From Polytrichum commune (Eukaryota; Streptophyta; Polytrichopsida; Polytrichales; Polytrichaceae), in NCBI GenBank assembly GCA_950295325.1, contig OX485807.1, positions 6,140,501-6,204,500 of the forward strand: a stretch of 64,000 nucleotides of DNA, in the 5' to 3' direction. The notes below the pieces were generated by a model. The model had not been told where the DNA came from. It worked only from the letters and a program-made list of their open reading frames with translations, and made no database searches. Positions 9,552 through 64,000 of this stretch are shown here, piece by piece. How positions within the stretch are numbered: the first letter of the stretch is position 1; the number at the start of each line of letters is the position of its first letter. A program made the translations under genes and the position numbers.

Positions 9552-12500
9552 CTACTTGATCGCCAGCAAAGATAACATCTTTCTCTTGTGCACATGAGCC
9601 CCTGGGATGTCAGGTCCACCACTTGAAGGGGTTCTCGGTTTAGGGCTTCTCTCATCACTCTTCTCTCCTGCCATCACCTCATTTCGATTGTTGTTTGGTA
9701 ATGTGGAATTCACTTTCCTGTGCACAGATTCCAACATCCTGCTCACAGTTTGGGCCTCTTTCAACTTGGCCGCTCGCCTGTTGATGAGATCCTGATGGTG
9801 CACACATAAAGAATAGCCTGGCTCCGTCATTCTGGAGCATTGCCATCCTCTCCCATCATAGCGCTTGCATTGCGTTGGCCCTTTCCCTTTCTGCGATGAC
9901 AATGGCCCGCGTCGCCTAACCTTCACAACTAACCCCACTTGTTCGCTAGTCCCTACCTCCTTCTCCTTCGGAGTTGAAGATTGGGAAGTTTTTGCACCTT
10001 TCGTGTTACTGTGTGCCTCATTGCAAGATTTGGATGTCAAGGGTTTGCTTTCTGTCACAACGGAGCTCCCAGACAAGGAGGCCCGCCCATTGCCTTTCTT
10101 CCCTTGATGATGATGGTGGTGCATTGAGTCTTCGGACATTTCTTCTTCGGCAGGGTTTACCCTCTGTTCTGGATGGTGTGAACTTCTTTGTCTTTTGGAA
10201 GAGGGTTTAGGGTCAAGACTGGAGCAAAGAAGGTAGCGTTTGTCACCGAGGGCTATGAAGGAGGAAGAAGATCGAAGAACATTGGCAACTTGCACAGTGT
10301 GCCTGGCACCCCCTTCCTTCAATCCAGGAAGTCTCTGTTCTATCATGATCCTCACCACCTCGCTTGCAGAGAGGCCGCTCTCACCCCACGCATCGAAGAC
10401 GAAGAAAATCGAACTTATTAGGGCATCCTTGGAGTTTTCTACGGGCTTTGAGTCCACTCTGGTTGTCACCGTTGTAGTATGCTCCGAAGTAGAATTCCCT
10501 GACGTAGCATGAAGCCTGCCAGGTTACAGATGCAGGTAAGGATTCAGTTCAAACCCGGAGAAATTAGGTTTCGACTGAGACCATTTTATTAGGGTTTAAC
10601 CTCTTGATGATAACCCCATTTCGAAATGGGTCATTGCAAACTTAATTTGAAATGATTATATGTATGGAATGCAAAAAAGGAGGGGAAGACTGTAGGTTTG
10701 TAAGTTATGTACCTCTCTCTTACACCATTCGCTAGTTCATGTACGACCAGCAACTCGGCGGCAGTCATCGTGGAAGGTCCCTGCAAAAACAGAAGCACAC
10801 AAAAAAGTCTCAGCCTTTATGAAAGATGGTTCGTGCAAATCAGGCTCGAGTAGGTAAGGCAGTCGTTCCTCCACATGATTCATGCATCTTGCGAACCGTC
10901 CATGATCGATGACCACTTTAAATCACGAAGTTTCTGTAACCCACGGAACTCGATCGAGCTAACTTAGTGCACCTGCGTCGACAAGATTTCATCAGATACT
11001 TTGGATATGCAGAATTGTGGTTTCCAGTTCGGGATGGTGTACTAGACAGACATGGGCATGCTCAGGGTTTCGTCACTTGCTCTTGAATGCAGTGTCATCA
11101 GTTGGTTATTCCAATCTAATGACCTGATAATGATCTATCTTCCTGAAGTTATAACACTTACTTCAAGCTGTGGAGAGAATTGCCAGCTAAAGGTCTGGTC
11201 GGTTCATTCCCACTCTTCAATTGTTCATGAAACCCTAGACACACACACCTGTAGCTGCCTCTGCACGTCGACACGCGATTCTTTCTACGTCCAATCCAGA
11301 AACCCTAATCCTGAGCGTTTCATATAGGGAAAAAAAGAAGCAGAAAAAAGTAGTGTTGCCAGAAAGCACTAGTGAATGTTTCCTTGCGCAACCGTCTCAA
11401 CAGCCCTCGTCTTAAAGCCGAAAATTTGATGATCTGTGCAATGATATCTCAGTATCTCTGAAAGGATACCGAGATGATACCCAAGACGTAGAGATAGAAT
11501 TGCATCTACCATGACATCTCTGGGTAATCTTCCTGCCGCCGTTTCTTGCACAGCTTGCCCAGGGGAGGATTTGAGCACATGACCGTCTCAATTCACGAAA
11601 TGGAACATGCAACAAATTATATATTGAGCCCAAGGAATTGTTATAAGCGTGCTGGTAAAGCAAGGTCACTGATTTGCAGGTCAAGAGAAGGTTGTCCAGA
11701 TAACACTTTTACATGGAAGACCACTGTAAGTTGCATCTCCTCATTCGGACCGAGTGAATCAAAGGTGATCACTCGGAGACGCGGTAAGCTAATCTTTCCG
11801 TGAAGCTAAGGCTCGGTCCATCTAATATGAAACTGCGAATGTCGATGAAGCTCCAGTCTTTGCTGTCTTGACCGAGAAATTAGAATGTGAAGACTGGCTT
11901 GAATATCCATGGGTATATATGAAACAGAAGTAGTCAACAAGTTTACCCTGAGTGCTGCGGGTACCTGAAAGAGCGAGCCGGAGGATTCATGGTCGACCTT
12001 GTGTCTCTTCTCAACATGGGTTATGTCGGTACCTGCATCCTCACTGAGACTTGGTAGAGCTTCGCTGCTTTCCACATTCAAGTCTGCCTGCAAATTTTTC
12101 ACATTCTCCTTATGCTCCTGCCATGGTCCATCCACAACACATGATGAGTCACGGCAATGTTACAGTGAGTCACCTGCAGCGTCACTGCCTGCCAGACTTA
12201 ACAAAAAAAGACCGACTCACCGACTCCCCGAAGCATCTACCTACCTCATGAATGACTACATATATATTCACCGCTGTTGCTATGATCTCTCAACTGGAAA
12301 GTTATTGAGGAACTGAATGCGATGCCGGTACTAACTATAATCAGTACTGTCAGCGTTTAGATCTACAACCAACTTCTTTGCTCAGGCTCATGCAGCCCGT
12401 CACCTGTGAGTACTGGTTCCAATCAAGTCCCCGTTCAAACCTAGCGTTTGCGACAAAGCAAATCTGACATCTCATCGCCTGTTTCGACGTCATGCGCCTC

Positions 12501-13928
12501 GAAATGCAGGTGACGATCGTGCAGTATGAGGACTCCATCCTCGATAGTTTCCCCCCACCCGTACCCGACCGATGACGCACTCGTGCCATGAAACTAACGG
12601 CATCCTCAAGATGGAAAAGTATATCCTCAACATAACCCTTACAGCTGAAACCAACTGACCATATACAGTACTTCGCATCTCCACCACCACATGCAGCTCC
12701 AAACTGAACACTAAAAACACTCTCCCCATCTCTAAATGAAGCACCTATATCATCATCATCATCATCATCCAAAACGGCTGCCGCATTACCCTCACAACAA
12801 AACCCTTACAGCTGAATCCAACCGACCACATACAGGAATTAGCCTCTCCGGCCACCACATGCAGCTCTAAACTGGACACTGAAGACACTTCGGTGAGGTC
12901 TCAGAATTAAGAACTTGCATCATCTTCTCGCAACACAACCCTTTCTAAATCCAACTGACCACATACAGCAATTAGCCTCTCCACCACCACCGCCGCCGCC
13001 GCACGTAGCTATAAACTGGACACTTAAAACACTCGATCACCATCTCCAAATGAAGCACCTATATCATCATCCAAAACGGCTGCTGCAGTACTCTCGCAAC
13101 ATAAACCTTACTAAATCCAACTGACCACATACAGCAATTAGCCCCTCCACCACCGTCACATGCAGCTCCAAAAAACACTCTTCCCCATCTCCCAAATGAA
13201 GCACCCATAACATCACCATCCAAAACGGCTGCTGCAGTACCCTCACAACATAACCCTTACGGCTGAATCCAACCGACCACATACAGCAATTAGCCTCTCC
13301 ACCACCACCACATGCAGCTCCGAAATGGACACTTCAAACACTCCTACACCCCCAAAATGGAGCACCTATCCTACCATCCAAAACGGCTGCAGCACCTTCG
13401 TCACCACGACATAACCCTTACAAGCAGAATCCACCTGACCACATACAGCAATTAGCTTCTCCGCCACCACATGCAGCTGCAAACTGCGCGCTTGAACACA
13501 CTCAAGCATCCCCTCCTGGAGAATGAAAAAACACCATCCCAATCTTTCCGAGCCACCCATCGTTGACCGATAATATCTACCACCTGCCACACCTTTTTTC
13601 ATACATTATAATATTACACTAGTCCCGGGACATTCATCAGGACGGACGCGTGGAAGATTCATAGATATACCACTCCGTTGCTTCCCGAGTGGACCTTGGA
13701 GCTCCAGTCTCTTCTACTTCCTGCACCATCATCATCTGCTTCCAATCCTCCGCTCTGCATGTCGACCGCCTTGCCTACAGCAGGCCGCTGGATTCCTGCC
13801 GCGACCTCGCCGCCAGCGCCAGCCTGCACCAAATCGGCCCAATCTTTCGTCGCCTGGAGCCTACAGGAGATGGGCAGCGGCGTGTAAGAGTCGGATGCAT
13901 CTCGGCTGGGGCGCTTGCGGATCCTCAT
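9552..13928 (-). CDS. WRC-domain nuclear protein, paralogue 1 (four exons)
   Basis: Probable nuclear DNA-binding or transcription-associated protein of 472 residues. Exons, in coding order, are 13928-13695, 12117-11965, 10780-10713 and 10515-9552. All introns are GT-AG with phases 0, 0 and 2, and the joined frame is open. The start MRIRKR sits in a good context and matches the paralogue at 39.6 kb. Residues 179-250 form a compact helical block (SKDAL...GLSASEVV...GLKEGGARHTVQVANVL...KRYLLCS) resembling a HARE-HTH-type winged helix. A basic stretch (VRRRGPLSSQKGKG) precedes the WRC finger, with C368, C378, C389 and H392 in C-x9-C-x10-C-x2-H spacing. WRC motifs bind DNA or act as nuclear signals in GRF and related plant proteins. 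The C-terminus is KRKMLSLLAIK. A His-rich run lies near residues 284-288. The exon 1 donor (AAG|GTCCAC) is weak and was chosen by alignment to the paralogue. Exact biological role unknown. Confidence 0.87.
12590..13500. repeat. Minisatellite in intron 1 of WRC paralogue 1
   Basis: About six units, each restarting near CCACATACAGCAATTAGC at 12659, 12826, 12959, 13125, 13277 and 13439 (spacing 133-167 bases). Units share CACCACATGCAGCTCC, ATGAAGCACCTAT and CCAAAACGGCTGC. It lies wholly within the intron, so apparent open frames here are by-products of the repeat. Confidence 0.88.
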
Positions 13929-29162: not shown

Positions 29163-30551
29163 ATTGTCATGTGTGACCCTTCGCGTCGATTTTTTTGGCG
29201 TCATGTCCCTCGGATCCCATAATCTTGGAAGACATCCCTTGTTTCATGAGTAGACTCATATGAGCTTGGTCATGATAACATTATTCATCCTAGGTGGTAG
29301 ACTTCATTTTCCACGGTTCATCAAAACTAGAGTCTTGACCCGGGAAAGTGAGGAGGTCTACAACAATGCTTTATTGCAAAGTGCACTCAAATCCACCTCA
29401 AGCACTCGAATCAACTTTGTATGCCATCCTCTCATTAGCCAATAATATGCATATAAGGAAAATGGTCCTAATTCGGTTATTTATCCTAATAGGGCACCTA
29501 CATTTGCATGGTATGTGGTTATATGTGGAATTAAGAATGGACCCCAAATAGACATATCTTCAACCTTTAATTACAAGGATGTGCGATAGGCCAAAGCTGA
29601 ATTTGTCGTACGCTTGGGCCATTTTGAGTCAATTTTTCTACATGAAATGTCATGAATACACTACGAGCATGTAGCCAACTCCACAACCCATTTGATACCA
29701 CATATTATGTGCTAATTGGATCATATTTGAGATCATTTTGAAAGTTGGATAAAACATTCTAGACTTCTCCTTTCAATCTCAAAATGTTAAGAGAACTTTA
29801 AGATCTACAATAGGACATGCCACCTAGATTCACAAGACCTGCCACCCATGAGAACTTTCGGGTGGCAAATCCTAGATCGTCTTTGCAAGGCTAGCTTGAC
29901 CCAGCCGTCATAGAATGACAAGCTAGAAAGCCATACTTTTATCTTTATTGTAAATTAATAACGAACACCACTATTGTAGGATGTAATTCAAAGCCCAAAA
30001 ATCCTCGAACAACTACACGGATGTTTCTCTCAATCTCACCTTTTAGTCAAGTTTGATCACCCGGAGCTTGATATGGAACCTTCACGGATAACCCTAATAC
30101 TCAACATCATCGGGAGAACACATGTGATAACTTTCTTCACTTTGACGTCTTATTGCTTTCGCATGTCAACTCCGATTCGTAAGCTTGAAATGATAGTGTG
30201 CACGATTCGCAAATTATCGCTTGTAAATGGACGATCGGAAGTGTTGGCTGTGGAGTTGGAGCCGGCCTATAAATAGCATGAGATACGTTCAACTATATAT
30301 GAAGCTGGGGGCCGGGGGGGGGGGGGGGTGTGAGTCACGAATCTAGTATATGGTTGTCCATGTTGTTGGGTTCCCCGAACTTTCAAGGAAGATGCGATCC
30401 GTGTTGACTTGTGGGGATAAAAACTATTGAGGAATAAAGACCAACCAAAAGGTGCATGAACGTATGGGCACATGTGGGCCACAAACTGGCTCCCCCGATT
30501 CTATTCACTCATTTCATCACTTCACCTGCTCCTGCATTTCAGCTCTACATA
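29163..30551. other. No gene; repeat debris with a TATA-like site
   Basis: Contains a worn TAAGGTAGA-family piece near 29480-29550 and the repeat at 29745. A good TATA-like word CCTATAAATAG lies at about 30268, followed by a G run at 30315. The TATA-like site may belong to an old LTR or be chance. Confidence 0.35.
29745..29960 (+). repeat. GCTAGCTTGACCCA repeat, copy 1
   Basis: Shares the GCTAGCTTGACCCA and GACAAGCTAGAAA words, and their spacing, with 38440-38640 and the inverse at 48850-49030. Non-coding. Confidence 0.5.
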
Positions 30552-31072
30552 CAGTCCACCCTCTATAAATGTTACACCTATAAGTGTTAACCCTCTCTAA
30601 ATGTTAACTTTCTTTTACTCCCCACATATTGCACACTATAAATGTTAAACGTGTTAACTGTTAATAAAATGGTACTCCCTTCTTTGTAAATTTGACTCTA
30701 TAAATGTTAACGAATGAAATACAACCATAATATGGATGATAAAAACTACACATCCAGTTACATTCCTCTCTCTCTCTCACCATGCGTTAGGGCGAGGCAC
30801 ATGGCATCGAGGGTGGGGTGGCGGCAGAGCGGTAGAGAATTGATTCCCAAAGCTTGATTCCCAAAGCTTGATATTGAATAAAGTTTTGATTGGGTTTGCA
30901 ATTTTATGAATGGTATTATCTCACAAGGACTCTTCACAATTGCTTATATTTATAAATGTTAAGATTTGTATATTGCTCAAAAAAGTAATTTTATTATTGT
31001 TAACTGTTAACACCTCTATAAATGTTAACTTTGATCCACTCCCGAGGGTTAACATTTATAGAGGGTAGACTG
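30552..31072 (+). mobile_element. Emigrant/pogo-like MITE, copy 1
   Basis: 521 bp between TA dinucleotides. The ends CAGTCCACCCTCTATAAATG and (reversed) CAGTCTACCCTCTATAAATG resemble the Emigrant/Lemi (pogo, Tc1-mariner) ends of plants. The motif CTATAAATGTTAAC recurs inside in both orientations, and a second copy lies inverted at 63284. Confidence 0.8.
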
Positions 31073-31153
31073 TACATACAACCCGCCTCCTATATATATC
31101 CTCTCAATCTGTCCTAAAGTTGCTGCCTCCTCATTCTATTGAAAATAAACTCA

Positions 31154-31659
31154 GGGCCACTTCACACACGACACAAGCCAAGAGCCGTGACCATGGAATT
31201 GTGAGAGCCCAAAAGAAAAGTGTCCAAAGGCCGTCCCAACGCACCTCTGACGTCATGTAGTGTGGTCACCGGCCCTCAAGTGTAGCGTGAAGTCATATGC
31301 GACCGGGCCCTCAGCCAACTGTTGTTTCAATGAAGTTTTATTCATGCGGGTCCTCACACATGATAAAATCAAATAAATCAACGGTTGTGAGCAGTCGGAG
31401 TGCCATGGTCTCCCGGTTTCGTGTTAGGCGTACCTCCAAGAGGTGGTTTTTGGAAAATAATCCAAGTGACCATGAAACGTGATCCCTTCGATGCCATGTA
31501 GGAATCCGTGTAGACTTTACATCCGTCTCGCATTCACTTACTCCGTTGGTCCCTCAAGCGTAGTGTGAAGCGAACTTGGACCGGCTCTGCTTTTTCCACC
31601 AATGAGAGTGCTTGAAGTGTAATGGTCAAGGGTTGTCAGTCTCGTGTGTGAAGTGGCCC
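31154..31659 (+). mobile_element. GGGCC-ended MITE, family B copy 1
   Basis: 506 bp starting GGGCCACTTCACACACGA with a matching inverted end (TCGTGTGTGAAGTGGCCC). The interior holds GCCAAGAGCCGTGACCAT and a segment ending ACTTGGACCGGCTC, all repeated in copy 2 at 51081. Confidence 0.75.
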
Positions 31660-31677
31660 TAAGATTTACATGCCAGA

Positions 31678-39628: not shown

Positions 39629-42600
39629 ATGAGGATCCGCAAGCGCAAGTCGGTGGACGATGCGGCCGAGCCAACAACACCGCTGCCCATGTGCTGGAAG
39701 TTCCAGAAGGCGGAAGAATGGCCGGAATCGGTGTGCCAACAGGTTCCTGGAAGAAGTTCTTCCGATGCAGGAATTCCAACGAAGCCGGCAGCTGTATGCA
39801 ACAAGCCGAACCCTAGTGAGGATGTGGCCAAGGCGAGGACCGGCGATGGGGATTTGGCTCCCAAACTGCAGAAGGTGACAGGAGAGAGTACTATCCCTCC
39901 CAATCTTGCATGTATGATATTAATAGAAACGTAGAAGAAGAACAGCGTCATGGTGTGGGGTCTGCAAATTGGGGTAGGTAGGTAGGTAGGTAGGCTTGCA
40001 GATCTTGTTGTGTCGTGGGATGTTGGGTTAGGGTTGGCTGTTGAATCTCAGGTTGTGTGCAGGGATTGAATTCCCATTGCCGTGCCAGTGCTGCGATCTG
40101 TAGGTGGTGCTGTAGGATGAGATTTATGGGGGGTTCATGTAGTATTCATGGTGAATTTTGTGGAGGTGGGGCTCAGGGTTAGGTTGGCACGGTGCTGAGT
40201 AACCTGCAGAAGGGTTGCATGTTATGGTGGAGAATTTATGCAGCTTTCTTGGGATGTGTGCGGGTGGTGTGGTTTGGTTTGGGTTTGGGTTTGGGTTTGG
40301 ATGGTGTCACCCTCGAGTCTCGCAGGTGGGGGTAGTGGAATGGGCACTGCCGATAAGTTCTAGGTGCATGACCTTTCCAGGCTGTACAAGGGTAAGGTTT
40401 GGACCTACGGGCCTACTACTCGGCGGGGAAGATGGTTGTGTGTGTGTGTGTGATGCCCAATCACCTAAGTCAACCGTCAGATTATGGATGGCAGTACAGT
40501 CTCCGATTGATTCATCCAAGACATGAGATCACTGCAGGGTTCTCTGGCTGCAAGGATGGATTGATGGAGTCATCTCATGAATGATGATGATGATCATGTC
40601 ATGAAGTTTGCAATATTTCCATGTGGAAGCTGTGTATGGATAATATGCACTGTATGCGGCCTGCTCCTGGTGGCACATTAAAATCGAGATGTTGCATTGG
40701 CCTGGACAGGAACATCAGATCATCATGAGGATTGACTTGAATGCCAAGCGTCTCGAAATTGATCATGACAGAAGTAGAAATGGAAGGTCAGGCTCGACCA
40801 AAGACACCGATTTCAGTGACACACAACGGACGAAGAAAACAAGCAAGATTGAAGAGCACAAGTCTTCCGACTCCATCTGCGAGGTATGTGTGTATGTATC
40901 CTGGAATTCTCCAGGAACTGATGTCGAAATCTTCTCGTAGTGCTACTGGTGACTGTAAATTCATGGTTACAACGAATCGGGGTGCGGCTGCATGCTTCTC
41001 ATACTTCTGTTGCTCTAGAGATTCAGACCCTTAAACCCATAACCTCACTGATGTATGAAGGTTGACATGTTGAAGAGCTCACGATTCAAGAGCTTTGGGC
41101 AATTTTGTCTGCACTTTCACGCCTGCATGAAATCGCTGCCTACGGCCCCCAAGAAATCCAAGATCCAGAATATCATTTTGTCAAATGTGTCAAACCTTTC
41201 AGTGGATGGCGATAGAGTCTCGTGACATCTTTTGCGCCTAACCTAAATGAATGAACTGACATGGTAAGGTTCATGTTAAGTTGGTCACCTGGTCTGATTA
41301 GGTAAGTTGCAGTGCGATTTGCAAAACTTTCTTTCAACATCATGGTGCATCAGATAACATGCTGTACCCAGGGTCAATCAATCTGTGAAAATGAGATATT
41401 GGGTTTTAGGTCTTCTAGGACGCCAAAAGGTTACAGCATCCACAAGGCGTAGATCTCACCGCCTTTACTCACTTACGGGACCCTGCAAGTCCTTTTCTGT
41501 TACACTTAGGGTTCCTCGAGATGGGTTGTGCCATGACCATCCGTGCATGTTTAGGGTTCTTGATAAGTTAGTCCTTCATGTACTAATCCTTGAAGCACTG
41601 ATCGATAATGAACATGGTTGACTATTCCGATCCCTGCACAAGCTACTACCATGGCCAAGGAAAGACCTTCTCGTCTGTTCAAGTTTTCCGCTCCAAATAA
41701 TACATGTTCAAGGCAATCTCCTCATTCTTTACTGATGTATGTCTTCTGATGCATGATTCGAAGTGCGAGCAGTTGCATCACTTTGACCTAACTTGTCCCC
41801 TCAACCCCCTCCAGGCTGACCCTACACCACATGATGCTGGGAAATGTCAAGGCCTTGCCACAATGACTGATGCGGAGCTTCTGGCCGTGAATGAATTAGC
41901 GAATGGCATACGTCAGAGGTAAGAGCCACAATCCATTTCCTTCATGTTTCTCCAAGTACTTACTCTAAATTCTCAAGTATCAATAATGTCCTGCTACCTA
42001 GGATTGTTTCAAACCCTAATAATGTGTTTCACCACATGGTGATTAAATAGATAAGTTTCATGCTGATCTGTGCAGGCGCAATGCTGCTTTGCGAGATGCC
42101 GGGCCTGCTGCTGTACCGGAGAAAGTCATCACGGCAAAAAGCAAAAACCCAGGAAAGAACTCTAAGGATGCTTTGATCCATTCCATTTTCTCCATCTTCG
42201 AGAGTTACGGCGAAGATGGGCTTTCTGCAAGCGAGGTGGTGAAAACCATGCTGGAGCAGGGGTTTCCCGGGTTGAAGGAAGGTGGCGCCAGGCATACTGT
42301 GCAAGTGGCCAATGTTCTTCGTTCCTCATCTTCCTTCATTTCCGTGGGCGACAAGCGTTATCTCTTGTGTTCCACCCTGGAACAAAAATCCGACTTGCCA
42401 GAGATAAAATTACCTGAGTCTTGTCAAATCCAGGAGACAAACATTCTTGCGAAGTCGGAGGATGACGATTCTTCTGCATTGCACCGTGGGAAGCAGGCCG
42501 GAAGTAGTAGCCGCTCGAAGGAGGTAGTCGACACGAATGTTTCCTCATCTGCCAAGAAGGTGGAGGTGCATGATGGGGAATTATTAGATGGGATGAATGA

Positions 42601-43018
42601 CTCCACAAATTGTGATGAGGGCTTGGAGGAAGCAGCAGGAGGAGCCCAGGAAGTAGAAACTAAGAAGGTTAGGCGCCGTGGGCCGTTATCCTCACAAAAG
42701 GGAAAAGGGTCAATTCAATGTAAGCGCTATGATGGAAGGGGATGGCGGTGCTCCAGATTGACAGAGCCAGGTTACTCTTTATGTGTCCACCACCAGGATC
42801 TCATCAACAAGCGTGCTGCCAAGTTGAAGGAGGCTCAAACTTTGAGCCGTACCACAAGTTCTTCGGCGGATAGAGCAAGGCCCCACAATCCCGAGGCAGC
42901 AGATTCTAAAGAAAAAGATCTCGCCTCCAACCCAAAAATCCAATCTAGTAGGGGAGGGTTCGTTGCAGGGGCACCTGGTCAGAAGCGAAAATTGCTGTCT
43001 TTGTTGGCCATAGGCTAG
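39629..43018 (+). CDS. WRC-domain nuclear protein, paralogue 2 (four exons)
   Basis: Second copy of the WRC gene, 488 residues. Exons are 39629-39874, 40710-40883, 41815-41918 and 42076-43018, with GT-AG introns in phases 0, 0 and 2, identical to paralogue 1. Exon 1 gives MRIRKRKSVDD and a TPLPMCW block. Exon 2 is charged and contains IDLN. Exon 3 carries MTDAELLAVNELANGIR. Exon 4 holds a winged-helix-like block (residues 203-274), an acidic and Ser-rich linker, a basic stretch, the WRC finger (C390, C400, C411, H414) and the tail KRKLLSLLAIG (478-488). The winged-helix and WRC blocks are nearly identical to paralogue 1, while linkers and introns have diverged, which suggests an old duplication under selection. 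The 5' leader is GC-rich and pyrimidine-rich. Function is inferred as nuclear and DNA- or chromatin-associated; no partner can be read from the neighbours. Confidence 0.9.
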
Positions 43019-48201: not shown

Positions 48202-48790
48202 TTAAGGTAGATGTGTCTAAATTCAACATAGCAATAATTTGGACACTTATATTTGGCTCCCGGCTAGATCACATGTTCATTCAGCTGGGCCCCGTCCCTC
48301 CCATGCCTCCTTCTTTGTATGGTCTTCCTGCCCGCACCTGTGTGGGAACTCTTTCCCATTGGGATCCAATGTGACAATACCCGGTCACTTAAGCTATTAA
48401 GCTCCTTTAGGATGTGAAGGAACTCCATCAATTAAGTTGGGAATAATGAAAGTGATGTCAACTTGAATATTTGTAATTTTGATCAATGAGGTTGGGTTCC
48501 CAACGAGGAAGAGTTCCCAGACATGTGCGGGCGTAAGACCGAGCAGTGAAGGAGGCGTGGGAGGGGCGGGACCCAACTAAATGAAGAGGTGATCTAGCCT
48601 GAGGCTTATATTTGAGTGATGTATGGTTAGGTGTTGAATACTCATGTGTTAAATTCTCATTTTGCCTTCCTATTCAAGTCATGATCATCATGTGAAGTCG
48701 ATGCAAAGTTCATCATTGACTATTGGATGGGATTGCCAAACTATGAGACACATGTTGAGCAAGGAAAGACCACGGGCTCAAAATGATGGG
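48202..48790 (+). repeat. TAAGGTAGA-family MITE split by a Mutator-like MITE
   Basis: Begins TTAAGGTAGATGTGTC. The word ACACTTATATTTG is interrupted by the 349-bp element and resumes as TTATATTTGAGTGATGTATG. The right half is diverged. Confidence 0.55.
48256..48604. mobile_element. Mutator-like MITE inserted in an older repeat
   Basis: 349 bp with inverted ends of about 110 bases at roughly 80 percent identity (CTAGATCAC...CCTCCCA...TGGGAACTCTT). The flanks CTTATATTTG are identical over 10 bases (48246-48255 and 48605-48614), which fits the 9-11 bp target duplications and long ends of Mutator-like elements. Removing it restores a continuous TAAGGTAGA-family copy. Confidence 0.82.
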
Positions 48791-49030: not shown

Positions 49031-50303
49031 CTAAGTTTTGACTCGAATGGCAAGTGAAGGTCCTACTACACTCTAACCTCCCTAATATCATGCTGTGGCA
49101 ACCAAAGTGCATGTGATATTATGGAGGTATGTAGTGTTAACATGGACTCATGATAATAGAGAATTGATGTAGCACATGACATTATGGAATAACCCAAAGT
49201 CAACATTGCAATAATGATAATGATGACAATGATGACAACACGATGCATGCAAGCATGTGATTTGAATTCTTTGGTGGATTATTTTAATACCAAAATCCAT
49301 GGTATATGGGAGGGAATTGTGACAACGTGGGATATTTCAATTGAGCACATTTGTTGTCGGATAGAGAGAATTTGTCTTAAGGGAACACGGGGTACTTGGT
49401 TGCAATTTGTTTAGCAAAAATGTCCTAGGTCCTAACAACCACAAATTACACCACTCAAAATTTTATGGATCACATAACTTTTTCTCTCTTTTGCTATTTT
49501 GCTTCACTAGATTCATTTGTCTGCCTAACTTCCACTCTTACGTATTAAAGAATGAAATGTCAACCCGATACTTTTTCCAAACATCAAGTGATGTTTTCAG
49601 ACAGATCAAATGTAAATCCAATCACTATTTAGTATTTTAGCACATGAACTTCACCATCCAATGCAGAATTATATAAGTTTTTTTTTATTGCTACACATTT
49701 TAATTATCACAACTAATCCAATACAAATAATACAAATAATCTATCATTTCATTCCCTTCTCTCTCTAGACGAAGTTTCCTGAGTCCTTCATTTTTTAAAG
49801 TGAATTATTCCTTCTTTTTCAACTCTCCAAACAACTATTACTAACTACTAGGCCGCATTTTTTTTCTTCTGGTACCCGCACAAGGAATTTTACCTCGTGA
49901 CTCTTAGTCTTCATGGGTTGGAGGTGTTCTTAATGCCTGGGGCCTTCACCCACACTAGGATCACTTGGGCCCTCTCACCTATGGCGCCACAAGTCCCAGG
50001 TGTCACTCCAAGGTCCCCCCTTGGGCAAATGGTGTTACAGGCACTCGTCATGGAGAGGTGCGTGACGATAAGGTTGGCAAAGTAATTCCATGTACCATGC
50101 TGTTGGTCCGGGTTTGAAACCTCCAAGCTTTTTGACTAAATTGTGGGGCGTGCGATTTGGTATTGCTAGTGAGCAAGCAAGAAAAATAACCTCCATGCCT
50201 CCTAATTTTATTATTATTAAATGACAAGAGTCATAAAAAGAGGTGTTGAGAAATACGCATTTTTATGTTGTTTATATCAAAGTGGTCTTAATAATGACAC
50301 TAA
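49031..50303. other. No gene recognised
   Basis: AT-rich. A B-box-like GGTTTGAAACC near 50108 lacks a convincing A box or target duplication, so no SINE is called. Confidence 0.35.
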
Positions 50304-50840
50304 GGGCCGCTTTACACCTAGAGGCCGGGCCAATTCCCCTTGAGGCTGATTGCATGAAATTTCAGCCCCTTTTGGGTTGGAGGCTGGCCTCAACTACACA
50401 TTATAATAAGATTATAATGGGGACCAATTTTCCCATATGTAAAGGCCTTAGGGCCAAGAAGCTAGGCCGAATCAATAAATCTAGCATAATCCAATGGATC
50501 TAGCATAACCAAGCACAAAGCCGTTCATATTTTCACATAATCCAATGGATATGGTTCGCTTAAAAAATCATATTTTATTTTAAAAAGTTTCTTTTTATTG
50601 AAATTTGACATTGGCCCCAAGGCCAAGAATTGGCCTTCCATTTTGGGTGCACCCAATTCAATGAGCTTGGGCCGTGTCAGACCATACATTTTTTTGATAA
50701 AAAAATTCATACCACCAAATCAGCTCGGCCTCTAGGTGTAAAGGGGTTGGGGCCGATTTCAGCCTTTTGACCAATCACAAGTGAAGATTTCAAACCTCTT
50801 ACACAACGAATTGGCCTAGCCTCCAGGTGTAAAGCGGCCC
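50304..50840. mobile_element. GGGCC-ended MITE, family C
   Basis: 537 bp with TAA on both sides. The ends GGGCCGCTTTACACCTAGAG and (reversed) GGGCCGCTTTACACCTGGAG differ by one base. A second inner inverted copy of the CTCTAGGTGTAAA motif lies near 50730. A Harbinger-type target. Confidence 0.85.
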
Positions 50841-51080
50841 TAAAAATGATATTCATGGACTGACCTCCTGTGACTCTTGACATCATTACATGGCATCGTT
50901 CAAGCTCTTCTCCAAGCTTCTCTTTCCAATAATAAGAATCATCACATGTTTCGTCATGTGAATGCAAAGAAGAGCTACTACATTCAGTGTTGAATCTGGC
51001 CTCCCCAAGAATATTATTGGTCGTTTCCCAAAACAATTTCCTGGATTGGGGCCTCTGAAGAACTTCACATAAGGAGCTTA

Positions 51081-51578
51081 GGGCCACTTCACACATGAGC
51101 CAAGAGCCGTGACCATGAAATTGTGAGAGCCCATACGAAAGTGTCCAAAGGCCGTCCCAACACACCTCCAAAATCATGTAGTGTGGTCACGGACCCCCAA
51201 GTGTAGTATGAAGTCATATGTGGTGGGCCCTCAAATAGATGCTATTTCAATGAATTTCTATTCATGTGGGTCCTCATGCATGATAAAATAGAATAAGTCA
51301 ACCGTTTTGAGCATTCGGAGTGCCAAGGTCTCCCGGTTTTGTGATAGGCCTACCTCCAAAAGGTGGTTTTTGAGAATAGTCCAAGTGACCATGAAACATG
51401 ATCCATTTGATGCCATGTAGGAATCCATGTAGACTTTACATACATCTTGCATTCACATACTTTGTTGGTCCCTCAAGCGTAGTGTGAAGCGAACTTGGAC
51501 CAGCTCTACCTTTTCCACCAATGATAGTGCTTGAAGTGTAATGGTCACGGGCTCTCAGTCTCATTTGTGATATGGCCC
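51081..51578 (+). mobile_element. GGGCC-ended MITE, family B copy 2
   Basis: 498 bp, flanked by TTA on both sides (51078-51080 and 51579-51581), the target expected for PIF/Harbinger elements. Ends and interior are largely collinear with copy 1 at 31154. Confidence 0.8.
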
Positions 51579-51929
51579 TTATAATAATGTCAGTGTGGAT
51601 TTTTGCACCCATTAGATACATGTCAAATGTGCATCGTGTATACATTTGGGGTGTGTGACGGGTGCAAAAATCAACCCTGAGTAACTTCATCTTAACTCTT
51701 CTCTTCCTTGTAGTATAAATCCCATTCTGGATGAAAAGAATGTAAAAGCTATGCTTACATGACACCTCTGAAGACATCTCATGATTTCCTATTCTTTATA
51801 AGCTACTATCCCAATATTGTAGTCATTTGGATGGATGCATGTAATTTACACATAACATGCGGCTATTTTTCCATCACTTCCAAAACCTAACACCCCCCAA
51901 GCCCTTCTAAGATAGACAAACCTTATTTG

Positions 51930-52318
51930 GCTACTTATCTTTAAATGGACACTTATGTGTCGGTGGTATGTGGTCTGGTGTGACTCCAAGCATGGATACT
52001 AGAACATATACTAGAAACACAAGTGTTTAAAAAAGATTGGATTGCATGTTCAAAATATGATAGTCATTCTAGATTTAATAGTCAACATAAATGGAAAGGG
52101 GGGGAGGAGGGGGAGGACCTGTATGACCATTTAATGAGCACAAAAATCATCACTTTGATAATGAATTAATATATCCATGTGAGCTCCAAAATAACAAGGA
52201 AATTGGCTACATCAGGGGCGATTTGGACTTGCTAACCATCTTGTACTAACCACGTGTTCATATCCAAGGAGAAATGGGCAAGGTGGAAAGAGAAACCATT
52301 TATGACCCATCTACCTTA
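51930..52318 (+). repeat. TAAGGTAGA-family MITE
   Basis: Contains GGACACTTATGTGTCGGTGG, TCATTCTAGATTTAATAGTC, CATTTAATGAGCAC and TTCATATCCAAGGAGAAATG, ending CCATCTACCTTA. Non-coding. Confidence 0.62.
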
Positions 52319-54172
52319 TATAATTTAGGCCAAGCTGTTAAAAGTGGCAATGCTTCGTGCATATTATTGTACCATAAAAGTTACCACCCCGTGACCGTGA
52401 AAGTGAACCTTCAAAATGGGTAAAACAAAATGCATGAATGTTGCATAGGGCTAGAGTTCACCGGGAGTCTAGGTAAATTTATCCATTGGGAAGGTCAATA
52501 CACAACGAGCTATTCTACTGCTTCATTTAAAAAAAATTAAATTATGTCATTCCAATAATAATACAAGGAACCCCCCCCCCTAAAAAATAAATTAATCCAA
52601 TATTTGGTTTAAATTTTGGAAATGAATTGCCCTTTAACTTGTAGGGGGTAGGCTTATTTTTACTAGAGTCCCTCCATTCATGATATGGATGAGTGTACTT
52701 GAAAACCACGAAGTTTGAGCCCGTTTTGAATCATAACAAATTATATCTTGAAAAACATGAAAATATTCTCAAAGTACTATTGTTGGTTCATGAAAATAAC
52801 AAGCCTAAAAATCTTATTTACTATGTCCTTAAAATTGGTGTATTGTTTTAATTAGAGTAGTCTTCATGACTTGCCAGGTAGCACTAAGTGTCATATGACA
52901 CTTTACTTGCAACCCACTAATTTCAAGACAACACGATAGTGTCACCATCAGAGGCTTTGTCCCTATCTTACATCATAGCTACAATATATATATATATATA
53001 TATATAAACCATTAGCAAGTTATCATATTTATTAGTGCTAATATTTAATATATAAAAATGAAACAAAATATTTTCTAATAAAAAATTATTTTTTTAAAAT
53101 TTTGAGTGAGGTTGAGAGTAGTTATTATAGGATTAATTTAATAAATGAATAAATTTAGAAAACATATTGTGTCATTTGATAAGAATATGAAGAACGATTG
53201 TTGTAAATTTTGTGAATCAAGAAAAATACAAACGTTTAGATGATTAAATAATATAATATATATATAACATAACTTATCAAGTGGTAGAGAATCTATGATG
53301 ACAAATATCATGACTAAAAATTGGAATATGATCACGTTGTTTGAATGCATAATAAATTGGTTTGTGGTAATCTACCCAATAAGTTTTTGTACATCTTGCT
53401 AGTGATTGATTACCTGGAACACTAGTCCAATTTTGGTCAAGTAGTGATTGATTTTTATTGGTGCTAATATGATTTTTCTAACTTAAAGTTATTATGGATG
53501 ATGAATTCTAAAAGACATTTGGATTGAGAATAGTTTGTTGTTTCATTGGAAGAATTTAAGTTTCATATATGAATTGCCAGCCTTAATTCAAGTCAACTGA
53601 TCTTTAGACAAAGTTAGATTGCCATTAAATTGACTGACAATATACTTTAATAAGCTTTAGAACCCCCTACATCTACATAAGCCACAACAAACTTCACATG
53701 AGTTTGCTATTTTAGTTATCGATGATATCCAAGATCCACATGCTATTTAGTTTATCGATGATATCCCAAAATCAATTGACATTCTATAACATGTGTGTCT
53801 TATTGATATCAACTTTCTTTCAAGGCATTTATTGAATAATACCAAAATTTTATAGGCAACTTTTAAAATAATTCTTAGACTCATATGTGCCATGAAAAAC
53901 AAGAGGAGACCTAAACAACTAATACACCTAATAACAAGAGGAGGTCGGCCTCACTCTTTGCTTTATTAATGGTCTGTCCCATAATCACATGAACAAATAA
54001 AAACACCATCACAAAGCTGTGTAGGAAAATTGTATGACTTTACATAATTCTACACCTAATCTACAATTGCATATTGATACAAATGTAGGTTATAATAATA
54101 ACTGCAAAGGGCCCACATAATCTACCAAGACTAGAAGATAACAATAAAGGAGCATTCCCAGTTAATCCTGAA
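52319..54172. other. No gene recognised; AT-rich
   Basis: A (TA)n tract near 52985-53005 and a short direct repeat around 53707-53780 (TATCGATGATATCC twice). No coding support, and no further COP1-like exons. Confidence 0.4.
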
Positions 54173-54970
54173 GGTGCCGTGGCAAAATCAAAGACTTTGA
54201 TGCGCCGCAAAACGCTTGCTGTGGCAAACAGTTCATCATCCGGTCAAACTCAATTAATACTGTTGATAATATGAAATAGTTTGCAGTTTCAGCGACAACG
54301 ATGCAGATATTCCACCAGAAAATCCACCCCCAGGACAGCCACAACAAACCATAAACAACCTCAAAAGGATAAATCATGTGTATGCTTCAAGTCCTTCTGT
54401 AGCAACAGAAGTTATCATCACATTCAGTTCTCTAATATCTCGCATATGCATGCACTTCAGCCACTTTAAGCCCACAGATTAGAATATCACAAAACTATGT
54501 CGTAAAACTGGGTTGCAACACATTTTGGGTATCCAAATGAAAAACATCTTATGCCATACCTCGAAAAGATGTTGGGAGTATGAAATAAGTCCCCATGATG
54601 CACCTCAACAATGGCACAAAGGTGGCTGTCATTGATCACAATGCGCAGAGCAAAGAATCATACATCATCCTTGTCACGCACTGCCAGCAGACCAAGTAGA
54701 ACTCATAATTATCCACAATACATTAACCTAATTGAATAAAATGCCGTGACATATCTGATACACATGAAATCATACCGATTATATAGACATTCATTTGAAG
54801 AAAGACATACCTGTACCGAGTGAAAGCTGTGACAACAGACTGGAAATCGTCTAGACCATCTTCGAGGCCCCAACAGCATCATGCTCAGATGCTAATTGCA
54901 ACAAATTTTGTTGTTGTGCAGCTGCAACTTGTCACCTTCTTGTGAAGTAAGCTTCTTGCAAGTCATCAAA
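54173..54970 (-). pseudogene. COP1-like E3 ligase gene fragment, broken
   Basis: Three exon remnants in the order of plant COP1, the RING/coiled-coil/WD40 ubiquitin ligase of light signalling. Exon A (54970-54811) starts after a TTGCAG acceptor with FDDLQEAYF and ends with FQSVVTAFTRY and a GTATGT donor. Exon B (54625-54560) is open and completes the split Ser codon, reading SHLCAIVEVHHGDLFHTPN. Exon C (54259 to about 54173) reads IEFDR, then DDELFATASVLRRIKVFDFA. This matches the linker into the first WD40 repeats. Damage: a TGA stop after AYFTRR in exon A (probable CGA to TGA), a one-base frameshift later in exon A, and compensating small indels around IEFDR in exon C. No RING domain or further WD40 repeats are seen on either side. 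Introns are kept, so this is a DNA-level copy and not a retrocopy. Confidence 0.85.
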
Positions 54971-55818
54971 CTGCAATGAGCATGAATCAACAGATTAGAG
55001 ATTTAATTAGCGGAATCATCGCATCCGAGTTGACGGGCTCACACATCAACTTTGATGAAGTAGTGCAAGAATTAAAACAAGTTTAAACCAAAATCTCCAG
55101 TCTGGAAACCATCATATGATAATATATTGTGTCGGGTACTATTGTGATAGCTCCTGAGAGTTGCTGTCCAGATGAGAGTTGCGTAGAGTTGAGGCCCAAG
55201 AGAGCCTTCGAGATCTCACCGCCAAAGTCTCTAGGGATCGGAGGTCAGAACTTGAATCGCCCGCAGAAGAGTGCCGCCTGCATCACCCCTTTAAAATAAC
55301 GACGTCAAACCCTGAAGGAGGACCAGGAATGCAAGGAGACAGGGAGACTCAGAAACCGTCCGGGGTGCAGCGTCAAAACCTACATTATTAATCCAGACAA
55401 CACAAGCTTGAAATCCAAAACCTACCATCCACAAAACTGTGTCAAAGTCAAAGCCAGATTTTGTGGCAACTTGCTTGCTTGTGCTTGAATGTATCACCCA
55501 ATATAACATCCACTCTAGCCGCCTCTTTTACCAACACAATTGCAAAAAAAACGCAAACTGAAAAATCTCCACTAATTCTTCTCAACACCACTTTAATCAT
55601 AGTTAAAGCATATCAAATATGGACTAGCAGACTTGAATTAGCCTCCAACGACACCCGCCTGCTTGTGATCAACAACAAAGCAAGCACCAACTCGAAGGAA
55701 GACATTGGATGAAACACAGATGCCCTGAGGTAAGTTAGACCAAGCTTACTAGCTCTAGATCTTTCTCCCATTCTAAGATCTTCCAACTCTAATTTTTTTC
55801 TAGATTCTATACAAAATT
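54971..55818. other. No gene; coding-like piece beside the COP1-like fragment
   Basis: Plus-strand frames (MSMNQQIRDLISGIIASEL at about 54974 and ESLRDLTAKVSRDRRSELES near 55195) are hydrophilic and coiled-coil-like, as in transposon accessory or gag-like proteins. Family not recognised. Confidence 0.3.
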
Positions 55819-56124: not shown

Positions 56125-57903
56125 ACCCAGTTACATAAAAATAGAAAGGAATATATACATGGCATGAGGTAGAGCTTTAGGATAGCCCATAATATCGGGA
56201 TCAATGATCAGAGCAAACGTATGATGCAAATGAGCGAGATTGAAGATTGATCATATATACTTAAGTTAACTTCTCCAGCCCCAAATGTACTTTCTGAGGT
56301 TCTTAGAACTTATAAATTTCTAAGTCACCACTATTTAAATTCTCGTCCTTTAACCTAACTTTGTCATGCTTCTTACACATGAATAAATTGATTATATTAA
56401 CTTCGTTTTCATTGTGTGGGTTGCCATATCAGTCCACTGTCCCATTGTAAGATGAACTTGAGGATTTGTACATGTCAACATAAGTAATGATTCTGCTGTT
56501 TGTCGTACTCGTCTTTGAGTTTAGGTCTAATAGGGACTGCATGGTTCAAGGATTCTCCAAATTCCAACTAAAAATTTCTTACATGCTTGCACAACCAAAA
56601 TCAGACGAAGTTGAGAGCGGATGGGGCTCAAATCTGTTGCCTAACCACTTTATATATTGCCCAGGCAAGTCACTCGTCAGTTTGGGTACAACTGCGAAGA
56701 AGTAGGTGGGTAGGCTTCACGAAATTTGAAACGGTCCACAAAGTTTGGTTGGTTATCATGAAAATATTTAATGAGTCAGAACATTGTAGCCAAATAGATG
56801 TCATCAAAGTACACATCATTTTTTTTTATAATCCAGCAGACAATAAATAAATAAATAAACCCCAGAGAATATTGACACATGTGTCATGTTATAGGTTAGG
56901 ATCCGTACGAGTTATCAGGAGTGGAGTTCTGTAATACCCGAATCAGAAGATTGAACAAGTTCATGTATGAGGATCAATTGCAGAGTGAATGGGTGATTGG
57001 ATCCTCCCTTTCATGAATGTATTAGGTTTTCATCGGTGAGTGAAAATTGTAAACTCTCATCAATTTGTTGCCACTCAATATCAAACAACTTAATTTAAGC
57101 GTCGATGGATGTGCATGTGATTAGTACAAAACAACAAAATAGGTAGAAGTTTGAAGGATTTTGTGTTGTAGTATCTAAGGCAAATGCCTAAATTGTTTAA
57201 TTGCGTCAATTGTTAAAAACCGTTCCAGAAGAAGCTTATGAGCAATGAGGATTCATGGGAGGCCGAAAACATGAGATGTTCCTAAATTGCGATCACCATC
57301 TAACAGTGTCTAGATTTCTTGATTGAGATGGGTACATCTACAGTTCATGAAACATTTTCTATGCCTAACTCAATTTTAAGTGTAACTAGAAGTTTTTTCA
57401 AAACTAGTTCACAACAGTTTGGTTGACTCATCATTCTATGTATGGATCACATCAAACTTTTGATGTGTCCAAATCCTGTCATCGATATGTGAATCATCAA
57501 TGTATATTACATTGTTCTTGTATTGAATTATTCATATTTGAATGCAATGTTATGGTATATCTATGTAATCCTTTGATAAATAATCATATTCTAATCAAAA
57601 CACCCATGTCAAAATCATATCCACATGTGCAATTCTTTTGGCAAATCCATCCATACACCCAGGACATGTCGTAATTCTCGACAAGGACCTGTCGTCCAAT
57701 TTGACCTCAATATGAAATATGGGTTGCTTTTCCAAGGCTCCACAGTTGAGCTTGAAGTAGCTACCTCAGTCTATGGCAGAGTCATCAGTACTAGTTGTAA
57801 TTCTTCTCAATCTGCTTTTCTTCCTCTTTCTCCTGCTTTTTGGTGCCTTCCTGACACTTCATTAGCTTGTCAATAGGTGAACATCATGAACAGATAGGTT
57901 AAT
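56125..57903. other. No gene recognised
   Basis: Mixed DNA with several 70-85 codon frames at 56.5-56.9 kb and 57.4-57.9 kb. None has a recognisable domain or convincing splice sites. Confidence 0.35.
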
Positions 57904-59252: not shown

Positions 59253-59336
59253 GGGGTGGTGGCGCAGTTGGCTAGCGCGTAGGTCTCATAGCTAAGAGAA
59301 ATCCTGAGGTCGAGAGTTCGAGCCTCTCTCACCCCA
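59253..59336 (+). tRNA. tRNA-Met (CAT), elongator, with intron
   Basis: A full cloverleaf can be drawn. The acceptor strand GGGGTGG pairs with CCACCCC written as TCACCCC (one G-T pair), followed by A. The D-arm stem is GCGC/GCGC, the anticodon loop is CTCATA...A with CAT at 59287-59289, and the T-arm is GAGAG-TTCGAGC-CTCTC. A 10-base intron (59291-59300) follows position 37, the usual place for plant elongator tRNA-Met. The mature length is 74 nt. A TATA-like stretch lies about 35 bases upstream, and a T5 run follows at 59365. Confidence 0.97.
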
Positions 59337-62188: not shown

Positions 62189-62382
62189 TACTTCTCCAGA
62201 TCTTTCACAGAGTCTTTCTAGTGATTGGTTATCGGTGCCTCTACTCTACATACAGGTGGGACGTATGGCAGTACCTTACAACGAAAGTCCATGCTAGTCT
62301 TTGGTTGGCATTTCTTTTCAATACGAAAACGAAGCACACGTCACCATTCATTTACTGATGCTAATTTATTAGGTGTCCATAA

Positions 62383-62776
62383 GAGCATCCTCAGTCGGTC
62401 TAGGTAAAGCTCACTGCAAACCAAGACCTATCTTGCTTAAAATTGCTCAAAATTTAGAGGGAGTGCACCAAATCTTGCTTAAAATGGACAGATCCTCCCA
62501 CACTCCCTCTAAATGTCAAAAATTTGGAGGGAGTGTGGGAGGATCTTTCCATTTTTAAGCAAGATTTGGTGCACTCCCTCTAAATTTTGAAAATGTGGTG
62601 TTTTCAATGAGGGATTTCACCTATGTCAAATTTTTACAATTCTTTTTTCTTGAGAAATATCTCACGTTTATTTAGGTGTGCTTCTAATGATGGTAATTTC
62701 AGTTTCTAATGTTAGGTCAGTCAAAAGATAGGTTTTGGTTTGCAGTGAGCTTTACCTAGACCGACTGAGGATGCTC
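62383..62776. mobile_element. PIF/Harbinger-type MITE with internal foldback
   Basis: 394 bp, flanked by TAA on both sides (62380-62382 and 62777-62779). The ends GAGCATCCTCAGTCGG run as near-perfect inverted repeats for over 45 bases. Inside lies a second hairpin with arms 62448-62514 and 62522-62589 and a loop of only a few bases. A TAA target and GAGCATC ends fit Tourist/Harbinger elements. Confidence 0.85.
62448..62589. repeat. Near-perfect hairpin inside a MITE
   Basis: Arms of about 67 bases (AGAGGGAGTGCACCAAATCT and its inverse) with a loop of only a few bases. A transcript would fold into a long duplex suited to small-RNA processing. Confidence 0.85.
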
Positions 62777-63283
62777 TAAAGCATGCCATCTTCACAATCC
62801 TCAATCTCTCTTTCCTCCTCTGCTTCAATGTCGCCAGCACAAAGTCATGAAAGGCGTCCGCTTGATTCGCACCCACTTGCTATCACACATCTCGTTATAA
62901 CTTCGACACAGAAAGTCCACAGGTAGAGAGTTTCAGGGTAGCAACTCCCCTGGGAGCGAGATGCCAGTGATGAACCATACATTTATTTGTGTTTGATATT
63001 GTGCCATTGGAATCAGAATCAAAGACCCTGATATAGTCTACCAGGACCCACTGCCTACTTTAGACTGCTTAATCACAAACATATAGACGACACGTTTCCC
63101 CCCCCCCCCGCCCACCCCACCCCCACTGGATATCACAAAGTCTACAAGAACTCGAACACATCAGTCCAATACTCCCCCCCCCCCCCCACCCCCCCATTTC
63201 TTTTTTGACATATATAGTTTTTGTATTAGGTTTACAAATAGCTCTAGGCAATCCGTTCGTTGGCATGGAATGACAACGCTATA

Positions 63284-63706
63284 CAGTCTACCCTCTATAA
63301 ATGTTAACTCTCGGGAGTGGATCAAAGTTAACATTTATAGATGTGTTAACAGTTAACAATTATAAAATTACTTTTTAAAGCAATATACAAATCTTAACAT
63401 TTATAAATATAAGCAATTGTGAAGAGTCACACAATTGTGAAGAGTCCTTGTGAGAGAATACCATTCATAAAATTGCAAACCCAATCAAAACTTTATTCAA
63501 TATCAAGTTTACAAATCACAGGTGAAGTATGAATCAATGGTTCTTTGGTGAGATCCATATTACGGTTGTATTTCATTCGTTAACATTTATAGAGTCAAAT
63601 TTACAAAGAAGGGAGTACCATTTTGTTAACAGTTAACACGTTTTACATTTATAGTGTGCAATATGTGGGGAGTAGAAGAAAGTTAACATTTATAGAGGGT
63701 GGATTG
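63284..63706 (-). mobile_element. Emigrant/pogo-like MITE, copy 2
   Basis: 423 bp flanked by TA (63282-63283 and 63707-63708), with ends CAGTCTACCCTCTATAAATG and CAATCCACCCTCTATAAATG. It is the inverted relative of the element at 30552. Shared internal words include CTTTGTAAATTTGACTC and GTTAACTGTTAAC. Confidence 0.8.
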
Positions 63707-64000
63707 TATGTGCAATGTAAAAACCCCATGGAGATAGAGAATGAGAGAGAGAGAGAGAGAGAGATTATAACCCTTGGGCATTGATTGAGTTCATATGTGA
63801 ACCTGTAAATCGTATGAGCTTAGATTTGTAGAGAGGTAAAGGTCTTGTTTTAGGTTTAGGGTTGTATTTCTGAAATTTTAAATGCCTATATGTTGGGGCT
63901 TGTAAATGATTATTCAGGTCACTATGTGTTGCATATCCTTTGACGATTAGTTTCTAGACCTCCTAGACCCACATAACTAATTCAACCGTTTAGTTATTTA
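63707..64000. other. No gene recognised at right edge
   Basis: Begins right after the Emigrant-like element. A (GA)n tract at about 63740-63764, then AT-rich DNA. Confidence 0.4.

Follow-up and report, generated by a model that had tools for sequence, protein, structure and literature searches.

The question raised by this locus is how a short, broken stretch resembling the light-signalling gene COP1, which encodes an E3 ubiquitin ligase, came to lie on the minus strand of a 64-kb window (the whole stretch of DNA analysed, with zero unknown bases) and whether it does anything there. A sequence-only reading had proposed a broken piece of a COP1-like gene captured by a mobile element. The answer preferred here, with a probability of about 0.78, is an unprocessed (intron-bearing) COP1 pseudogene fragment in a plant nuclear genome. 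Such a fragment makes no COP1 protein and, we infer, probably does nothing.

The query was Arabidopsis COP1 (675 aa), in a sequence that agrees with PDB 7vgg_A at every residue over its full length. The four top tblastn matches in the six frames of the window all fall at 54973–54178 on the minus strand and follow COP1 order:

COP1 residues 301–317, minus strand, tblastn match of 24.3 bits
COP1 residues 335–353, minus strand, tblastn match of 30.8 bits
COP1 residues 354–375, minus strand, tblastn match of 30.0 bits
COP1 residues 367–402, minus strand, tblastn match of 34.7 bits

The fifth-ranked match in the window reaches 23.5 bits (E 1.2). The alignment of residues 367–402 overruns 20 bases into an intron; its true part begins at 54259. 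Individual matches of 24–35 bits are about what chance gives, the best match of shuffled COP1 being 30.8 bits (n = 200). As an ordered, same-strand chain spanning at most 1.5 kb, COP1 gives 4 matches and 119.8 bits versus at most 3 matches and 63.9 bits for the shuffles, none of which (0/500) produced a chain as good. The chain test was run with floors of 20, 22 and 24 bits; with a very loose floor it is powerless (136.0 for COP1 versus 139.7 for the best shuffle, n = 200). Joined by hand and compared with the PDB, the pieces yield E 1.8e-23 for COP1, 1.6e-9 for human COP1/RFWD2 and 0.16 for the best other WD40 protein, values that are flattered by the hand joining and obtained with the frame-shifted letters omitted. 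The DDELF piece alone (phmmer, PDB) finds four sequences, all of them COP1 (E 5e-4 to 1.9e-3), and nothing besides COP1 up to E 10. The COP1 match of the piece is significant and specific, in order and on one strand. The COP1 identity claimed from the letters, with three exons in COP1 order, is borne out by these four colinear matches, and the protein-level alignment was found at residues 302–402.

The piece consists of three colinear exon remnants at 54970–54177, separated by introns:

54971..54990, minus strand: end (3′) of the preceding intron, AG acceptor kept (read from the sequence)
54811..54970, minus strand: remnant A, exon 5 in Arabidopsis numbering, residues 302–353 plus two bases of Ser354 (tblastn, sequence)
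54626..54810, minus strand: retained intron of 185 nt, GT–AG, phase 2 (read directly)
54560..54625, minus strand: exon remnant B, 66 nt, open, residues 354–375 plus two bases of Ser376 (tblastn, 30.0 bits)
54260..54559, minus strand: retained intron of 300 nt, GT–AG, phase 2 (read directly)
54177..54259, minus strand: exon remnant C, residues 376–402 (tblastn, 34.7 bits; phmmer)

All five splice dinucleotides are intact. The junctions read TTGCAG/TTTGAT before remnant A (54971/54970), TACAG/GTATGT after it (54811/54810), GACAG/CCACC before remnant B (54626/54625), TCGAG/GTATGG after it (54560/54559) and CAACAG/TATT before remnant C (54260/54259). An alternative acceptor for the 185-nt intron, CTGGCAG at 54681, would lose the COP1 frame at the junction. 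With the junctions placed as listed, both internal introns are in phase 2, and the AG/C that the sequence-only reading had given across the first of them is correct.

Two of the three exons, the first and the third, have a disrupted reading frame. Remnant A opens TTTGATGACTTG after TTGCAG and closes TACAG before GTATGT; its 13th codon is TGA, and its length of 160 nt is incompatible with a passage from phase 0 to phase 2. Its halves match COP1 in different frames, the translation being FDDLQEAYFTRR, a stop and QVA in one frame and GLDDFQSVVTAFTRY in another. Remnant B translates as SHLCAIVEVHHGDLFHTPNIFS, runs from phase 2 to phase 2 and is stop-free. Remnant C has IEFDR in a shifted frame, followed by DDELFATASVLRRIKVFDFAT to about 54177; two small indels lead to two TGAs, and the frame is restored at DDELF. 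The COP1 similarity stops after FDFAT, at about 54177, where there is no recognisable GT donor. The brokenness noted earlier, a TGA and frameshifts, is confirmed for the first and third exons. With the middle exon open and every splice dinucleotide in place, the decay of the piece is not extreme.

The position of one intron can be set against the published Arabidopsis gene. In the cop1-6 allele, according to PMC3861121, the AG that closes COP1 intron 4 has become GG; PMC7411146 describes how the resulting cryptic splicing inserts five residues, in frame, behind residue 301, and cryptic splicing at intron 4 is likewise named in PMC4694719. The residue is written Glu-301 in PMC7411146 and is Gln in the sequence of PDB 7vgg_A. 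The AG acceptor in the window stands immediately before the codon matching Phe302, where Arabidopsis COP1 intron 4 ends (residues 301/302), and remnant A therefore corresponds to exon 5. Remnants B and C would then be the two exons that follow exon 5; the comparison with the published gene covers one of the three intron positions, the intron 4 acceptor. A literature search on COP1 exons found nothing, and the viral-contig and genome-contig collections (non-plant) contained no COP1 relatives that could supply a second gene structure.

Two GT–AG introns and one further acceptor are kept; therefore, the piece is not a retrocopy and originated at the DNA level rather than from mRNA. A processed pseudogene is excluded by the presence of the two introns. 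The DNA-level origin that had been deduced from retained introns is upheld, and one of the intron positions is that of Arabidopsis intron 4. As to the route, we infer that a COP1 segment, running from some point in intron 4 to a point inside the third exon or to its end, may have been duplicated at the DNA level, or, alternatively, that the piece may be what is left of a larger duplicate copy of COP1; decay without selection would have followed the duplication. Since no convincing sign of a mobile element was found, we favour either a plain duplication of DNA or a duplicate that has lost all its other parts.

The attribution to a plant nuclear genome is suggested by the contents of the window, since it holds an intron-bearing tRNA gene and two ORFs with a WRC domain, a domain known from plants. 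The tRNA gene, the one predicted in the window, lies at 59253–59336; its type was left undetermined by ARAGORN in the bacterial setting, and we take it from its sequence to be an elongator tRNA-Met. The WRC-domain ORFs (Pfam PF08879) lie at 9555–10523 on the minus strand and 42047–43015 on the plus strand, in opposite orientation, and are 51% identical over a 309-column alignment; they probably arose by an old local inverted duplication. An imperfect direct-repeat array (12628–13503), G+C-rich and strongly skewed, lies about 2 kb away from the first WRC ORF; its units are 70–86% alike at several spacings.

The likeliest of the alternatives is that an entire duplicate COP1 gene (from tandem, segmental or whole-genome duplication) lost its other exons in place and that the piece is what remains of it. 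It is a sub-case of the preferred reading, the likelihoods of the two overlap, and we regard it as a tentative possibility. The unprocessed, intron-bearing state of the piece and the first acceptor, still present, agree with it. Against it, COP1 searches recognised no WD40 exon in the 54 kb of the window downstream of the piece and no RING or coiled-coil exon in the 9 kb upstream. When COP1 residues 1–301 and 403–675 were compared with 44–64 kb, no match was better than E 0.22, which was reached by residues 441–451 at 49307–49339 on the opposite strand; for whole COP1, no match outside the piece and within the 64-kb window was better than E 1.2. A few chance-level matches have the strand and side that further exons would have (residues 129–145 at 55038–54988, E 2.3; residues 94–101 at 56703–56680, E 5.2; residues 525–535 at 48466–48434, E 8). 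All of these are taken as chance; badly decayed exons may be present. The absence of COP1 exons is firmer downstream because 54 kb are covered there versus 9 kb upstream, and, if intron 4 is long, the 5′ exons could be situated beyond the end of the window. An ordinary COP1 gene is ruled out by the broken frame together with the lack of any other recognisable COP1 exon in the window; the continuation into full RING or WD40 coding sequence that would have marked such a gene was not found.

It is unlikely that a DNA transposon (a Pack-MULE, another Pack-TYPE element or a Helitron) copied the COP1 segment with its introns and brought it here. The retained introns are what DNA-level capture would give, the piece is short, gene-internal and isolated, and MITE-like elements occur in the wider neighbourhood. 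The MITE-like elements and dispersed repeats around the piece are as follows:

50303–50841: MITE-like element of 539 bp; its inverted ends are 34 nt long (91%), and a TAA target duplication may flank it (sequence)
51077–51579 and 31150–31660: two copies of a dispersed repeat, each about 510 bp long, with 86% identity (self-comparison)
52015–52319: dispersed repeat, 1.9 kb from the COP1 piece (self-comparison)
62382–62777: MITE-like element of 396 bp; its inverted ends are 53 nt long (98%), a TAA duplication may flank it, and nested inverted repeats lie inside
63281–63709: MITE-like element whose ends read CAGTCTACCCTCTATAAATG; a TA duplication may flank it

The element at 50303–50841 is presumably a PIF/Harbinger-type MITE. 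The one at 63281–63709 has a second, inverted copy at 30547–31074 (three matching blocks, 89–97%), and both appear to us to resemble Emigrant-type pogo MITEs. The nearest MITE-like elements are 3.3 kb and 7.4 kb from the piece; these and the dispersed repeats lie on both sides of it, and each is complete in itself. The earlier placing of the piece ‘among transposons’ holds loosely, with MITE-like elements at these distances and a dispersed repeat at 1.9 kb. Self-comparison at E 1e-4 showed no repeat common to 52.3–59.9 kb and the rest of the window. At 53705–53776, 0.4 kb from the piece, a 36-nt unit occurs in two tandem copies (75%).

The search for transposon ends, which the sequence-only reading had proposed for inverted and Helitron termini, gave little. 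A scan of 8 kb on each side for inverted 13-mers with target duplications of 8–10 bp found two pairs, 47629/58398 and 49689/62043, versus a mean of 0.35 in shuffles that preserved base content only (n = 20). This excess speaks for capture, but in each pair 3 of the 13 positions are mismatched, the members stand 10.8 and 12.4 kb apart, and one of the duplications is T-rich. Comparison of the flanks with each other (blastn, 44.0–54.2 kb versus 55.0–64 kb) gave 21 matches of 12–20 nt, none better than E 1.1, and the sole inverted pair of at least 20 nt spanning the piece is AT-rich, 31 nt long and 74% identical (52515–52545/57894–57924). The two 13-mer pairs and the 31-nt pair are judged to be chance, though the former exceed the shuffle mean. 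No Helitron 3′ end was found in 46–62 kb with a strict pattern; the scan covered 3′ ends only and is a weak test, as none was found in 20 shuffles either.

Further evidence against capture comes from the coding content of the neighbourhood. Out of 50 stop-to-stop ORFs of at least 60 aa in 48–62 kb, 22 were scanned with Pfam, and these 22 contained no transposase and no reverse-transcriptase/polymerase domain; the Pfam matches in four of them were all under the curated family cut-offs and were put down to chance. When the entire window was scanned with regular expressions for reverse-transcriptase, integrase and gag motifs, six matches came up; these, too, were judged chance, and five of them have stops inside or beside them. 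One of the six, a FIDDI match at 53751–53765 on the plus strand, is 0.4 kb from the piece, directly after a stop codon and inside the 36-nt tandem repeat. Transduction by an LTR retrotransposon was rejected, as no direct long terminal repeats flank the piece (blastn, repeat search): blastn showed no direct match longer than 20 nt across the flanks, and the repeat search showed, on both sides, only a C-rich stretch of 22 nt in direct orientation. In the literature, none of the matches listed for COP1 with Pack-MULE or Helitron named COP1, and among those listed for COP1 with pseudogene or transposon the full-term match concerned pear MADS-box genes. These results do not support capture of the piece by a mobile element: neither inverted nor direct ends that convincingly enclose it were found.

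That the locus might still be working, for example by regulating COP1 or by giving rise to small RNAs that act on it, is very improbable: the intact splice sites would permit it and nothing speaks for it positively, while the stops and frame changes speak against it, as does the self-comparison of the window, which showed no other copy with which the piece could pair. Least probable of all is that the piece is old DNA-transposon cargo with decayed ends, the spliced or antisense RNA of which would still feed small-RNA control of COP1.

The preferred reading, an unprocessed COP1 pseudogene fragment, is of small significance, adding another decayed gene fragment of an ordinary kind to a plant genome; awareness of it guards against the annotation of a COP1 gene at this place. 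Were capture by a mobile element shown, that, too, would be an already known phenomenon. Pack-MULE, Pack-TYPE and Helitron captures share with this locus a short, intron-bearing piece of a host gene in a repeat-bearing region; unlike them, the piece was not found to be enclosed by convincing terminal repeats, by a target duplication or by a transposase. With COP1 itself (At2g32950, PDB 7vgg), the piece shares the sequence of residues 302–402 and the position of intron 4, but it covers about 100 of 675 residues, holds no more of the WD40 domain than its beginning, lacks the RING and the coiled coil and has a broken frame. From plant gene fragments and pseudogenes of the unprocessed (duplicated) type no difference was observed: they, too, keep introns, represent part of a gene and carry stops and frame changes.
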